A stretch of 11,040 nucleotides of DNA from Oscillospiraceae bacterium. Lineage in GTDB: Bacteria; Bacillota_A; Clostridia; Oscillospirales; Oscillospiraceae. The notes under the pieces were generated by a model. It worked only from the letters and a program-made list of their open reading frames with translations. It had not been told where the DNA came from and made no database searches. The DNA lies in assembly GCA_017411665.1 (NCBI GenBank), contig JAFQPT010000224.1, forward strand, positions 1 to 11,040. Reading direction: 5' to 3'. The first letter of the stretch is position 1, and each line of letters begins with the position of its first letter. Of this stretch, positions 3,881 to 11,040 are shown one piece after another. Made by a program: the position numbers and the translations under genes.

Positions 3881-3971
3881 TGTCATCTCGAGCTTGCCGA
3901 GGGATCTCCCGGATCATTGGCGTATTGAATGGGGGATTCCTCGATTCCGCTTCGCTTCACTCGGAATGACA
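3881..3971. mobile_element. TGTCATTCCGAG palindromic repeat element, copy 1
   Basis: A 91-bp element bounded by TGTCATCTCGAG on the left and CTCGGAATGACA on the right, which are imperfect terminal inverted repeats. The right arm, read inward on the minus strand, is TGTCATTCCGAGTGAAGCG and continues into a GGAATCGAGGAATCCCCC stretch shared with copies at 7364 and 9314. It has no coding capacity. Size and structure fit a small non-autonomous (MITE-like) element or a dispersed REP-type repeat. Confidence 0.65.
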
Positions 3972-4049
3972 GATGATTTTGAGAAAGCACCTCGTACTTT
4001 CTAACGTCTCTTCAAATTCCAATTTATCGTTCTAAGGGCTCACACATCG

Positions 4050-5575: not shown

Positions 5576-6378
5576 CAGCCCACCTCCTTTTCCTGGAAGC
5601 CCTGTCCCAGCAGGGTGAAGCCCAGAATCATCAGCACGATGAATGCGCCCGTAAAGATGGCGCACCAGGGTGTGGTAAACAGGGTCCCCTGTGCTTCGGA
5701 GAGCATGCGGCCCAAAGAGGCATCGGGCGGCTGTACACCCATGGACAGATAGCTCATGCTGGCCTCTGCCAGTACGGCATTGTTAAAGCCGATGGCAACA
5801 GAGCTCAAAAGCACATTCTGTACATTGGGCAGAATGTGTGCAAACAGAATGCGGAAGGGGCTTGCGCCCATGATACGTGCATTCTGAACATAGTCTTTGG
5901 TGCGTTCCTTGGCAAATTCGCCGCGGACGATGCGGGCAAAGCTGGGGATAAACAGAATGCCCAGAGTGAGAATGATCTTGTATTTGCCGGAGCCGAATAC
6001 GCTGACCACCACCAGTGCCAGCAGAATGCTGGGGAATGCAGCAATGGCATCGCACAGGCGCATCAGCAGCTCGTCCATCCAGCCACCGTAGTAGCCGGTG
6101 AGGCTGCCGATGATGATGCCTACGATGACACCGATGGCTACGGTGCAGAATGCAATGAACAGACTGGTACCGCCGCCGTCAATGACGCGGGAGAACATAT
6201 CACGGCCGAAGTTGTCCGTGCCGAAGGGATGGGTCAGACAGGGGCCCATCATTTTGTCCGCTGCGGACATGGCGTTGGGGTCATAGGGCGTCCACACAGC
6301 GCCGATGAGAATGAGAAGCACCAGTACGGCAGTAATTGCGCCGCCGATGCGAAGATTCCAATTATAGTTTTTCTTCAT
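5575..6378 (-). CDS. ABC importer permease (DppC/OppC/NikC-like)
   Basis: Integral membrane half of the transport channel. The 267-residue protein has a first membrane segment at about 11-29, the OppC-type N-terminal hallmark FGTDNFGRDMFSRVI (52-66), further hydrophobic segments at roughly 75-95, 112-130, 135-150, 186-205 and 238-258, and the EAA coupling loop ARIMGASPFRILFAHILPN (167-185) that contacts the ATPase. Length and layout are normal for the family. ATG 6378 has AAGGAGG 5 bases upstream. It lies 10 bases after the partner permease gene and overlaps the next gene by one base. The family handles dipeptides, oligopeptides, nickel chelates or other small peptides; nothing visible here chooses among them. 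Confidence 0.93.
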   Translation of the reverse strand: MKKNYNWNLRIGGAITAVLVLLILIGAVWTPYDPNAMSAADKMMGPCLTHPFGTDNFGRDMFSRVIDGGGTSLFIAFCTVAIGVIVGIIIGSLTGYYGGWMDELLMRLCDAIAAFPSILLALVVVSVFGSGKYKIILTLGILFIPSFARIVRGEFAKERTKDYVQNARIMGASPFRILFAHILPNVQNVLLSSVAIGFNNAVLAEASMSYLSMGVQPPDASLGRMLSEAQGTLFTTPWCAIFTGAFIVLMILGFTLLGQGFQEKEVG

Positions 6379-7363: not shown

Positions 7364-7525
7364 TGTCATCCCGACCGAGCGAAGCGTGTGGACTCCCGCA
7401 TAAAACGCGGGAGTCATCAAAGCATCTTACCTTTTAAGCTTTGATAGTGGACCCCCTCAAACAAGCAGCCTCTCATCGGGGGATTCACTCGACTGCGCGG
7501 CAAAGCCGCTCCGCTCGGAATGACA
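7364..7525. mobile_element. TGTCATTCCGAG palindromic repeat element, copy 2, inside the ABC operon
   Basis: A 162-bp element bounded by TGTCATCCCGACCGAGCGAAG and CTCGGAATGACA. The right arm read inward matches copies 1 and 3 (TGTCATTCCGAGCGGAGCG, then AGTCGAGTGAATCCCCC). Its centre carries two further perfect hairpins: GACTCCCGC/GCGGGAGTC (7391-7415, 9 bp) and ATCAAAGC/GCTTTGAT (7416-7445, 8 bp), which look like a nested or composite structure. It sits between the lipoprotein and permease genes with no gene interrupted and begins 33 bases upstream of the permease start codon. It has no coding capacity. Confidence 0.7.
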
Positions 7526-7534
7526 GATTATTTA

Positions 7535-9281: not shown

Positions 9282-9313
9282 GATTCAGTACGAGGAACAC
9301 CCCCAAACTTACC

Positions 9314-9422
9314 TGTCATTCCGAGTGCAGCGCAGCGGAATCGAGGACTCCCTCAATGAGTGTGCCATTCGTCGAGGGGATACACTCGACTCCGCAGCAA
9401 AGCTATTACGCTCGGTATGGCA
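9314..9422. mobile_element. TGTCATTCCGAG palindromic repeat element, copy 3
   Basis: A 109-bp element bounded by TGTCATTCCGAGTGCAGCG and CTCGGTATGGCA. The left arm continues CGGAATCGAGGACTCCC, almost the same as the right arm of copy 1. The right arm read inward continues GGAGTCGAGTGTATCCCC, close to that of copy 2. The right end carries two changes (CTCGGTATGGCA against CTCGGAATGACA), suggesting decay. An internal GAGTGT/ACACTC pair can extend the fold. It lies in the gap between the divergent importer and feo promoters. The open frame across it is repeat-derived, not a gene. Confidence 0.65.
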
Positions 9423-9441
9423 GCTTCTTTTTGCGGACACC

Positions 9442-9473
9442 GTATCGGCGGGCGGCCAAAGGCTTGCCCCTAT
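9442..9473. repeat. GGCGGGCGGCC ... GGCTTGCCCC intergenic repeat, right copy
   Basis: Read on the minus strand the stretch is ATAGGGGCAAGCC followed by TTTGGCCGCCCGCC. G-rich and C-rich runs flank a short centre, like the GTAGGGGCGG-type intergenic repeats I associate with clostridial genomes. It shares GGCTTGCCCC(C/T)AT with 9269-9281. Identification as a repeat family rests on this one pair and memory. Confidence 0.4.
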
Positions 9474-9546
9474 CAATTGAATTGTTTCAACACCCTGTCG
9501 AATTTAGTCTACGCTAATGTGCCCGTTTTTTGGTTGTTCTGTGAAA

Positions 9547-9562
9547 GTTTGGAATTCCTAAC
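9547..9562. promoter_or_regulatory. Candidate feo operator, site 1 (GTTTG-N6-CTAAC)
   Basis: GTTTG-GAATTC-CTAAC matches the GTTAG-N6-CTAAC pattern of the other feo sites with one mismatch in the left half. It lies 36 bases upstream of site 2 and just upstream of the TTGACT -35 box, a position suited to upstream or cooperative binding. It is the weakest member of the set. Confidence 0.4.
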
Positions 9563-9571
9563 ATTTCTGCC

Positions 9572-9600
9572 TTGACTTTTTCGTTAGGAGGTCCTAATAT
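9572..9600 (+). promoter_or_regulatory. Candidate promoter P1 of feoAB
   Basis: TTGACT (9572-9577) is followed after 17 bases by TAATAT (9595-9600), a good -35 with a moderate -10. Operator site 2 (9583-9598) fills the spacer and overlaps the -10, and site 3 (9607-9622) covers the expected start. This is a repressor-like layout. Confidence 0.55.
9583..9598. promoter_or_regulatory. Candidate feo operator, site 2 (GTTAG-N6-CTAAT)
   Basis: GTTAG-GAGGTC-CTAAT contains the perfect palindrome TTAGGA-GG-TCCTAA (9584-9597). It has the same half-sites and 6-base spacer as sites 3 and 4 and sits between the -35 and -10 of P1. TTAG/CTAA half-sites recall DtxR/IdeR-family boxes, but the spacing differs from the DtxR consensus as I know it. 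Confidence 0.6.
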
Positions 9601-9606
9601 GATGGT

Positions 9607-9622
9607 GTTAGAATTTACTAAC
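9607..9622. promoter_or_regulatory. Candidate feo operator, site 3 (GTTAG-N6-CTAAC)
   Basis: GTTAG-AATTTA-CTAAC is a perfect inverted repeat; with one more base each side it is TGTTAG/CTAACA. It starts 24 bases after site 2, so both lie on the same DNA face if the helical repeat is near 10.5-12. It covers the start region of P1 and the -35 region of P2. Confidence 0.65.
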
Positions 9623-9641
9623 AGTATTATATAAGTATAAT
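9614..9641 (+). promoter_or_regulatory. Candidate promoter P2 of feoAB and overlapping palindrome
   Basis: TTTACT (9614-9619) is followed after 16 bases by a perfect TATAAT (9636-9641), 24 bases upstream of the feoA start codon. The -35 overlaps operator site 3. The -10 lies in a 9-6-9 inverted repeat, CAGTATTAT/ATAATACTG (9622-9645), which may be a further binding site or an mRNA hairpin. Which of P1 and P2 is used cannot be decided by eye. Confidence 0.45.
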
Positions 9642-9665
9642 ACTGCATGAAAAGTGAGGATAGTT

Positions 9666-9878
9666 ATGGATCTCAGAAGCGCACAGATTGGAAAGGAATA
9701 TATTGTCCGCCGGATCGTGACCGACGACGAAGAACTCAACTCCTTCCTGTTTTCTCTGGGCTGCTACAGCGGCGAACCCATCACCGTAATTGCAAAGCGC
9801 AGAGGCGGCTACACCGTGTCCATCAAGAACGGCAGATACAACATCGACAGCGGGCTTGCTGCTGCCATCGAAGTCTGA
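9666..9878 (+). CDS. feoA: FeoA, ferrous iron transport accessory protein
   Basis: A small cytoplasmic protein with an SH3-like fold that works with FeoB in Fe(II) uptake. The 70 residues follow the FeoA pattern: MDLRSAQIGKEYIV at the start, an acidic linker (TDDEELNSFLFSLG, about 18-31), then CYSGEPITVIAKRRGGYTVSIKNGRYNIDSGLAAAIEV, where FeoA proteins have the LGL..G..I.....G...V...G...ALR core. I chose ATG 9666 because GAGGA lies 6 bases upstream. A GTG in frame at 9654 would put that site inside the gene. It is the first gene of the feo unit, 116 bases ahead of feoB, and is probably under iron control through the GTTAG-N6-CTAAC sites. Confidence 0.9.
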   Translation: MDLRSAQIGKEYIVRRIVTDDEELNSFLFSLGCYSGEPITVIAKRRGGYTVSIKNGRYNIDSGLAAAIEV

Positions 9879-9883
9879 TTGGA

Positions 9884-9944
9884 CGGGTACCCCGAATTTC
9901 ATGTGAGGCGAAAGCCTCACGGACATGAGTTAGGGTGCGCTAAC
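9884..9944 (+). other. Structured feoA-feoB gap with hairpins and operator site 4
   Basis: Three adjacent foldable units lie in the gap. CGGG-TAC-CCCG (9884-9894) is small. GTGAGGC-GAAA-GCCTCAC (9903-9920) is a perfect 7-bp stem with a GNRA tetraloop, extendable by TCAT/ATGA (9899-9928) across a 4-base bulge. GTTAG-GGTGCG-CTAAC (9929-9944) starts directly after and has the same half-sites and spacing as the sites upstream of feoA. The last could be DNA operator, RNA stem or both. There is no T-run, so not a simple terminator, and I could not match it to a riboswitch class I know. Confidence 0.5.
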
Positions 9945-9994
9945 AACATCGTTTAACATTTAGATTTAGAATATCACAAAGAGGAGGAACCCTT

Positions 9995-11040
9995 ATGAGA
10001 ATTGCTTTAGCAGGCAATCCCAACAGCGGTAAGACCACCATGTACAATGCTCTGACCGGCCGCAGCGAAAAGGTCGGAAACTGGGCAGGTGTTACCGTTG
10101 AAAAGAAAGAAAGCCCCATTAAGAGAAGCTTTTATGACGGTGCAGAAGAACTGATTGCAGTTGACCTGCCCGGTGCTTACTCCATGTCTCCCTTCACCTC
10201 CGAAGAGAGCATCACCAGCAGCTACGTCAAGAATGAGCACCCCGATGCCATTATCAACATCGTGGACGCGACCAATCTGAGCCGCTCTCTGTTCTTCACC
10301 ACCCAGCTGATGGAACTGGGCATTCCCGTTGTCATCGCACTGAACAAGTCCGACATCAATGAAAAGAAAGAAACCGTCATCGACGCAAAGGCACTGAGCG
10401 CAAAGCTGGGCTGCCCCGTCATCGAAACCGTATCCACCTCCGCAGAAGGTCTGGGCGCAGTGGTCAAGGCTGCTATGGGTCTCAAGGGCAAAGGCCAGAA
10501 GGCTCCCTACAAGCAGGGCAGTATCGACCTGACCGACAAGGCTGCTGTGGAAGCTGCTGACAGAAAGCGCTTCGACTTCGTAAACGGCATCGTAGAAAAG
10601 GTGGAAACCCGTAAGATTCAGACCAATGAATACGGCTTCCAGGACAAGATCGACGCAGTCCTGACCCACCCCATCGTTGGTATTCCCATTTTTGCACTGG
10701 TTATGTTCCTGGTGTTCCACATTTCCCAGTCCGACGGCTCTCTGGGTCTGGGCGTATGGCTGGCAGACACGCTGGTAGGCTGGCTGGAAGGCATTCAGAG
10801 CGCTATCGGCGAACTGGTCTCCGACGCATCTCCCCTGCTGCAGGCTCTGCTGGTTGACGGTATCATCGGCGGCGTTATTGCGGTTGTGGGCTTCCTGCCT
10901 CTGGTTATGGTCATGTACTTCCTGGTCGCTCTGCTGGAAGACTGCGGCTATATGGCTCGTGTTTCCGTTGTGCTGGATCCCATCTTTAAGAAGGTGGGTC
11001 TTTCCGGCAAGTCTGTCATTCCTTTCGTCATCGGCACCGG
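9995..11040 (+). CDS. feoB: FeoB, ferrous iron transporter with N-terminal GTPase, C-terminus beyond window
   Basis: Membrane transporter for Fe(II) with a cytoplasmic GTPase domain. The visible 349 codons hold G1 GNPNSGKTT (7-15), the G2 region [10 protein letters not shown] (30-39), G3 DLPG (57-60), G4 NKSD (117-120) and a G5-like VSTSAEG (146-152). A helical guanine-dissociation-inhibitor-like region (about 170-222) follows, then the first membrane segments: [15 protein letters not shown] (227-241), [23 protein letters not shown] (289-311) and the conserved [35 protein letters not shown] (315-349), where the frame runs off the edge. Most FeoB G1 loops I know read GNPNCGKT or GNPNSGKT. Start ATG 9995 has GGAGG 7 bases upstream. 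It is downstream of feoA on the same strand with a structured gap, so it is either co-transcribed or separately tuned. Confidence 0.96.
   Translation, partial: [348 protein letters not shown]

Follow-up and report, generated by a model that had tools for sequence, protein, structure and literature searches.

A conserved palindrome at the feo locus of gut Clostridia as a putative one-dimer operator of small DtxR/MntR-type repressors

The feo locus and its palindromes

The window, by which we mean the whole stretch of DNA that was analysed (11,040 bases), runs at its far end into feoA and feoB, and the upstream neighbour of feoA is a peptide-binding protein gene on the opposite strand. Four copies of a palindrome of the form GTTAG-N6-CTAAC, here termed O1 to O4, lie in this region together with the following features.

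9503 to 9518, no strand: candidate weak extra copy, TTTAGTCTACGCTAAT, two mismatches; alone not above chance
9547 to 9562, no strand: O1, GTTTGGAATTCCTAAC, one mismatch to GTTAGN6CTAAC; upstream of the -35 element
9572 to 9600, plus strand: predicted feoA promoter TTGACT-17-TAATAT, 9 of 12 consensus positions matched
9583 to 9598, no strand: O2, GTTAGGAGGTCCTAAT, one mismatch; in the spacer between -35 and -10
9607 to 9622, no strand: O3, GTTAGAATTTACTAAC, no mismatches; at the predicted transcription start
9614 to 9641, plus strand: possible second promoter TTTACT-16-TATAAT, its -35 inside O3; 10 of 12, a consensus match only
9666 to 9878, plus strand: feoA (Pfam PF04023, E=1.3e-12)
9903 to 9920, plus strand: hairpin GTGAGGC-GAAA-GCCTCAC without T-tract, 8 nt before O4, at the place of the relatives' terminator-like hairpin
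9929 to 9944, no strand: O4, GTTAGGGTGCGCTAAC, no mismatches; between feoA and feoB
9995 to 11038, plus strand: feoB, extending beyond the window end (Pfam PF02421, E=5.7e-56)

In the predicted feoA promoter, 17 nt separate the -35 element TTGACT (9572-9577) from the -10 element TAATAT (9595-9600). O2 occupies most of this spacer and reaches the -10 element, and O3 lies six bases past it. The initial annotation of this DNA had reported copies at 9547, 9583, 9607 and 9929, and all four were recovered there with at most one mismatch each; the distances that it had measured between the first three, 36 and 24 bp from start to start, are correct, and its remark that the second and third overlap promoter elements agrees with O2 touching the -10 element and O3 lying at the predicted start. 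Its further statement that the pattern is confined to the feo locus stands for the window, where no other copy with at most one mismatch occurs, and fails for the relatives, one of whose genomes holds 25 exact copies. Dinucleotide shuffling of the 11,040 bases gave a mean of 0.13 copies at this threshold (maximum 3 in 60 shuffles), and 300 shuffles of positions 9441-9995 gave a mean of 0.013 (maximum 1). With two mismatches allowed, the window contains 7 matches against 2.27 expected, and the one at 9503, immediately before the array, could be a fifth, weak copy.

Two other repeated structures were observed in the window. A perfect 10-bp inverted repeat, CAGTATTATA-TAAG-TATAATACTG, abuts O3 in the feoA leader (9622-9645); it contains a possible -10 element and folds with -9 kcal/mol (z -3.9), and inspection by eye did not find it in the 13 relatives that were displayed. 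An interspersed element around TGTCATTCCGAG is present in three diverged copies (3904-3998, 7507-7533 and 9287-9381), consisting of a 95-nt inverted pair at 75% and 27-nt matches.

Conservation at feo and distribution among relatives

A scan for FeoB relatives yielded 580 confirmed loci, of which we used the best 80, with 74-82% identity. They derive mostly from MAGs with some isolates, and carry labels such as Oscillospiraceae, Lachnospiraceae and Clostridia; for some of the organisms the family is the one to which we take the genus name to belong. Among these best 80 of 580, 75 loci have 700 nt before feoB, and 74 of the 75 carry a copy with at most one mismatch (1.3 in shuffles), 41 of them an exact one (0 in shuffles). 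A copy at the feoA promoter was found in 71 of the 75, a copy before feoB in 65 and both in 62. When the window was added to the best 80 of 580 and two mismatches were allowed, the internal site was present in 77 of 81 loci.

Over the 189 sites of the window and the best 80 of 580 loci, the half-site consensus reads R-G-T-T-A-G-Y-W-W; the half-sites themselves are partly given because these sites were chosen for at most one mismatch, and R, Y and W were not part of the selection. Neighbouring sites in this set tend to keep their distance, 21 of the 35 pairs within 60 bp being 33-34 bp apart. A sigma-A-like promoter matching at least 9 of 12 positions lies within 50 nt of 44 of 73 promoter-side sites (window and relatives, best 80 of 580), and in 28 of these 44 its -10 element ends 7-8 nt before the first site. 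L001, the closest locus among the matches listed, resembles the window in layout, with a copy in the promoter spacer, a copy at the start and a third further down. The motif is conserved at feoA in these relatives, and this conservation argues that the palindrome is a real and widely conserved control site of gut Clostridia. One locus of a different build is L005, which has no feoA within 700 nt before feoB; a promoter and two operators 34 bp apart precede its feoB (6001), and a tRNA-Thr gene lies at 5658-5733.

Beyond feo, the genomes of 16 relatives hold 155 exact copies compared with 25 for the reversed pattern, and many of the relatives greatly exceed their control count. Random scatter of the motif and a lack of conservation at feoA in relatives were two of the refuting conditions set by the initial annotation, and the results on both did not refute it. 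The ratio of exact to reversed copies is very uneven from genome to genome (25/3, 24/1 and 20/3 against 1/2 and 2/0). The same unevenness is seen in 118 genomes of the class, which together hold 306 copies against 237 for the control; 12 of these genomes have at least 8 copies (control 1) and 43 have none. The motif is a trait of some clades, and the uneven counts suggest a regulon that is large in some genomes and small or absent in many.

Of the 54 exact copies in the genomes G003, G009 and G004, 51 were placed relative to genes by crude ORF calling; 48 of the 51 lie outside called ORF bodies and 43 near a start. For G003, Intestinimonas butyriciproducens An565 (the genome of locus L011), 30 proteins encoded near sites were compared with NCBIfam. 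Above the curated cut-off were three ECF substrate components of the MptD/Trep_Strep kind, the ZIP transporter ZupT and a heavy-metal P-type ATPase, although the site beside the last actually precedes a recombinase gene. Proteins below the cut-off but of clear family were ABC exporter-type proteins, AraC-type regulators and two MntR-like regulators, and the other neighbours included a methyltransferase, a TetR-type regulator and a deacetylase-like protein; no family match was obtained for 6 of the 30 proteins, and some site neighbours are not transport genes. Among the genes that a site precedes are those for ECF components, ABC proteins, the ZIP transporter, AraC-type regulators and a DtxR-type regulator. 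In stretches L127-L136 of this genome, genes for ABC proteins, ECF components and AraC- and TetR-type regulators are clustered with operators between them, and some stretches are common to G007 and G008. G003 also has up to 11 DtxR-family matches, nine of them over the Pfam cut-off, which means that parallel regulators may use similar sites.

Operator geometry and the candidate regulator

In the 19-bp TTAGGTTAGSCTAACCTAA box of the actinobacterial DtxR/IdeR proteins, one IdeR dimer is described on repeats 1 and 3 and the other on repeats 2 and 4 (PMC8464063, available sections). Written out from that source, repeats 1 and 3 are TTAG at positions 1-4 and CTAA at 11-14 with six bases between, and the spacing of the sites here is therefore the one-dimer spacing of the family. 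IdeR also binds a half-site as one dimer, for which the authors propose the consensus TTAGGNNNNCCTAA; the 14-bp TTAG-N6-CTAA site at the nuo cluster of Saccharopolyspora erythraea is given as the first reported case (PMC8464063, same sections), and positions 9584-9597 within O2 match this published half-site exactly. The 'own spacing rule' that the initial annotation had proposed is thus not supported, and the spacing it called different from the DtxR box differs only from the whole two-dimer box, not from the one-dimer unit. A second overlapping TTAG/CTAA pair, as in the 19-bp two-dimer box, was seen by eye in none of the four window copies. The sites therefore resemble the DtxR/IdeR box, as far as the cited source describes it, in their TTAG and CTAA halves six bases apart, in their overlap with the -10 element and start, and in the family of the regulator, but provide a single dimer site where the box has two that overlap, and favour an outer G/C. 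They differ from the S. erythraea half-site in being the usual form of the feo operator in the whole group, often in arrays.

The first spacer base after GTTAG offers a further difference, being mostly C or T in the relatives. G is found there in only 16 of 370 half-sites of the relatives (best 80 of 580), compared with 5 of 8 in the window. In IdeR, Gln43 contacts the first C of CCTAA, that is, the spacer base adjoining CTAA (PMC8464063, available sections). The 23 regulators encoded head-to-head with feoA (best 80 of 580) never have Gln at this position; residue 43 is Arg in 5 and Val or Ile in 18. C follows GTTAG in 19 of 26 half-sites of the five loci with Arg43; among the 76 half-sites of the 18 loci with Val43 or Ile43, C follows in 12 and T in 56 (Fisher test for C against not C, 1.6e-7, uncorrected for kinship, many of the 18 being Mediterraneibacter). 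In five further genomes with Arg43 proteins (those of L006, L015, L025, L026 and L035) the count of C is 30 of 36; a Val43 paralogue is present in L006 as well, and L015 and L026 each have a second homologue with residue 43 unread. Other genomes with Val43 or Phe43 fit loosely or not at all, the counts of C being 0/6 for L016, 2/6 for L008, 3/6 for L003 and 2/4 for L002, and L045 is an exception to the pattern, with a Val43 regulator and C at all six spacer-1 bases. Residue 43, a DNA-contact position, and the base that it contacts tend to change together, and if this rule holds, the regulator of the window's organism should be Gln-like at position 43.

DtxR-family matches were found in all 12 genomes searched, in 11 of them above the Pfam cut-off, and none among the ORFs of the window. 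Where at least 1 kb upstream was available (74 of the best 80 of 580 loci), 23 loci, including L001, have a short DtxR/MntR-type gene that is oriented head-to-head with feoA and shares its operator region, and 51 lack such a gene. Nine loci of the best 80 of 580 have a DtxR-type gene downstream of feoB, and two of these (L048 and L053) have a head-to-head gene in addition. This arrangement supports the dimeric DtxR-related metal sensor that the initial annotation had suggested. Homologues of the L001 regulator, one to three each, occur in 14 of 16 genomes of close relatives, with no match in those of L005 and L024, whose assemblies may be incomplete.

Fur-family genes are found in 15 of 16 relatives' genomes, the Fur box being a 19-bp GATAATGATAATCATTATC-like site. 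Short Fur-like frames, matching roughly positions 1 to 65 of the Fur model, were also observed near feo or adjoining operator copies (G004:C2:54818-55006, in the stretch of L018; G009:C1:784504-784689; G009:C17:2375-2563) and might encode a second regulator or a small helper protein.

All four regulators scanned consist of PF01325 and PF02742 (Fe_dep_repress and Fe_dep_repr_C) and end soon after the dimerisation domain, without the SH3/FeoA-like C-terminal domain; in this, and in residue 43, they differ from DtxR/IdeR proteins. The L001 regulator matches MntR and DtxR structures with E of about 5e-14, and its residues aligned to Met10, Cys102, Glu105 and His106 of DtxR are identical. In the six MntR ligand columns, the 23 head-to-head proteins (best 80 of 580) all read [Met, Asn or Asp]-Glu-His-Cys-Glu-His, with Met in 5, Asn in 17 and Asp in 1 at the first column. 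Over 35 regulators (best 80 of 580) the Met10 place holds Met in 5, Asn in 20, Asp in 8 and Val in 2, and Cys102-Glu105-His106 is kept, as in DtxR, in 33. Of the manganese ligands of MntR, the equivalent of Glu99 is Cys in 33 of 35 and Asp8 is kept in 8 of 35, so that the set does not fit MntR in the strict sense. The replacement of MntR Glu99 by Cys and of Asp8 by Met is described as giving iron-type ligands in the parts consulted of PMC10317159 and PMC2628430. Both are present in the L001 regulator and only Cys in most others, which makes iron likely but not proven, and the signal sensed is probably Fe(II).

The same operators could instead serve a sensor mainly of manganese, or of both metals, in other words an MntR of its own kind that also controls feo. 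The proteins resemble Bacillus subtilis MntR in size and two-domain build, as the four scanned ones are of MntR length and have no SH3/FeoA domain, and the mntH recognition sequence, which includes TTTGCCTTAAGGAAAC (PMC9861239), can be read as a 5-N6-5 palindrome, a reading of our own. Asn or Asp at the Met10 position, found in 28 of 35 regulators, is likewise known from MntR proteins (PMC10317159, in part), and PgMntR, with Asp and Cys at these places, is reported to bind both metals (PMC4805248, in part). On the other hand, the half-site sequence differs from that of B. subtilis, the target is a ferrous-iron transporter, Cys stands where MntR has Glu in nearly all regulators, and L001 together with four other head-to-head regulators has Met as well. 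We regard a manganese sensor as unlikely, though the most serious of the alternatives considered here.

The internal site and the proposed mode of repression

Judging from sequence, it is very probable that the sites would be one-dimer operators of a small (about 120-130 residues), metal-dependent DtxR/MntR repressor, with O2 and O3 blocking the promoter and O4 stopping read-through polymerase. When metal, probably Fe(II), is sufficient, the repressor would sit on O2 and O3 and block RNA polymerase at the feoA promoter, a step well supported by the position of the two sites. A dimer bound to O4 would stop the polymerases still passing feoA, so that feoB would be shut more tightly than feoA. 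No promoter was recognised at O4, which lies within the transcribed region if feoA and feoB are co-transcribed, as we assume, and a bound dimer there would act on the elongating polymerase or on a terminator. The role that we favour is a roadblock that would back up a leaky terminator. In the sections available of PMC10310618, PurR, GalR, CcpA and CodY are described as blocking elongation, which most DNA-binding proteins do poorly; an operator inside the transcribed region is shared with such roadblock repressors (LacI, PurR, GalR, CcpA, CodY; PMC10310618 and PMC4132739, in part), whereas the near-constant distance behind a terminator-like hairpin is particular to the sites described here.

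This pairing was seen in 50 of 77 loci (window and best 80 of 580), in which a terminator-like hairpin, a stem with a T-rich tail, ends 12-18 nt before the internal site. The count comes from a strict scan that allowed stem ends at 8-20 nt and supersedes an earlier looser one (58 of 77, stem end 10-19 nt before the site). At the promoter-side sites the same hairpin occurs in 1 of 73, and 100 shuffles gave a mean of 2.35 (maximum 8); the difference between internal and promoter-side sites is marked (Fisher test, 8e-19, uncorrected for kinship). Stem sequences vary among many of the loci, and no stem of the 50 overlaps with a copy of the operator. Of the 50 stems, 27 are A-T-rich with fewer than three G-C pairs, so that these may be leaky as terminators. 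The distance from the internal site to feoB varies from 40 to 129, which suggests that terminator and operator belong together. A copy at a near-constant short distance behind a terminator hints at a second way to shut the transporter gene. In the window, the region around the hairpin (9893-9930) folds with -14.5 kcal/mol (z -3.9), and as no T-tract follows it, O4 there does not lie behind a standard terminator; some other loci, for example L024 and L043, similarly lack the terminator and retain a hairpin before the internal site. The feoA-feoB spacers of L011, L013, L037, L048, L053 and L062 form a subgroup with no terminator-like hairpin but with similar stretches, a ..gca.. run preceding the internal operator and a tgt.gtaat-like run following it, perhaps another device.

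The same arrangement was found outside feo. Around 49 exact sites (98 sides) of three genomes, 14 terminator-like hairpins are aimed at the operator from 10-19 nt, whereas the other ten-base bins up to 150 hold 0-4 and shuffles about 1. Five further genomes (96 of 98 exact sites, 190 sides) gave 22 in the 10-19 nt bin, at most 4 per genome in any other bin and 0.2-0.6 per genome in shuffles. Inspection of all eight genomes gave 38 sides with a hairpin at 8-20 nt; 8 were removed because an operator copy folds on itself or is overlapped, and 5 more for having fewer than three G-C pairs, a rule that would also remove the 27 A-T-rich stems at feo. The 25 kept come from all eight genomes (1 to 6 each) at distances of 13-18 nt (16-18 nt for 19 of the 25), in a count that includes operons of related genomes repeatedly (for instance L127 13453, L204 and L220, or L127 11941, L205 and L221). 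The roadblock reading requires that enough polymerase pass the terminator when iron is low; against this, some of the stems away from feo appear strong, and a second promoter was not recognised.

We tentatively suggest, as something possible rather than probable, that a terminator followed 12-18 nt on by a one-dimer operator would form a two-part device, a metal-gated terminator recurring across the regulon in Lachnospiraceae and Oscillospiraceae. The bound repressor would halt polymerase at the end of the terminator and thereby make a leaky terminator tight, and when metal is absent polymerase would read through into the transporter gene. A polymerase halted by a roadblock stops about 14 bases before the operator. 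This point would correspond to the first bases of the T-tract, so stalling would fit better than completed intrinsic termination.

Other readings of O4 and of the repeats have to be weighed against the roadblock. Sites of the regulon often lie at promoters, and L005 has its promoter and two sites directly before feoB, so that O4 might be the operator of a separate feoB promoter. Yet only one internal site of 70, that of L005 itself, has a sigma-A-like promoter within 50 nt, against 44 of 73 promoter-side sites in a scan that knows the sigma-A-like type only, and in Mediterraneibacter the distance from site to ATG, ribosome site included, is about 25 nt; a separate promoter is improbable and was set aside as unsupported, as was an antisense promoter (4 of 69 sites). 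O4 could also cooperate with the promoter sites through DNA looping, to which 62 of 75 loci (best 80 of 580) would be suited, as their sites form two groups, in most cases separated by 284-395 bp. The distance shows no helical phasing (R 0.05-0.11 in 64 loci at 10-11 bp), however, and the four scanned proteins have no SH3 domain, through which dimers of some relatives interact (MtsR, according to the available sections of PMC8464063), and looping, likewise unsupported, seems highly improbable to us. That the repeats act as RNA hairpins, or are chance or mobile repeats and not protein sites, draws on the pairing of GTTAG with CTAAC in the predicted transcript fold around O4. Against this, the predicted start lies downstream of both O1 and O2, which would not be transcribed from the feoA promoter, the same half-sites precede unrelated genes in relatives, and the motif is conserved at feo in all but one of 75 loci (best 80 of 580). 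The window has no Rfam match at gathering thresholds, and an RNA element or a chance repeat can be given next to no weight.

The family, the repression of feo by metal and roadblocking are already known. We found no report of this motif at feo in the open-access literature, including by its literal string, nor of a terminator-operator pairing of this kind. Measured against that literature, and as far as shown here, the one-dimer site as the usual feo operator, the variation of residue 43 and the terminator-operator pair are new. A 2023 review (PMC10317159, in the sections available) states that low-GC Gram-positives mostly sense iron by Fur and keep DtxR proteins for manganese, and leaves one-dimer half-sites in other species, and their role, for investigation. 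Many gut Clostridia appear to control ferrous-iron uptake via one-dimer sites and small Cys-containing DtxR proteins, and the half-site question becomes testable in cultured commensals. The pairing of residue 43 with one base pair offers a candidate recognition rule, and the terminator-operator device may split one operon into two levels of control.
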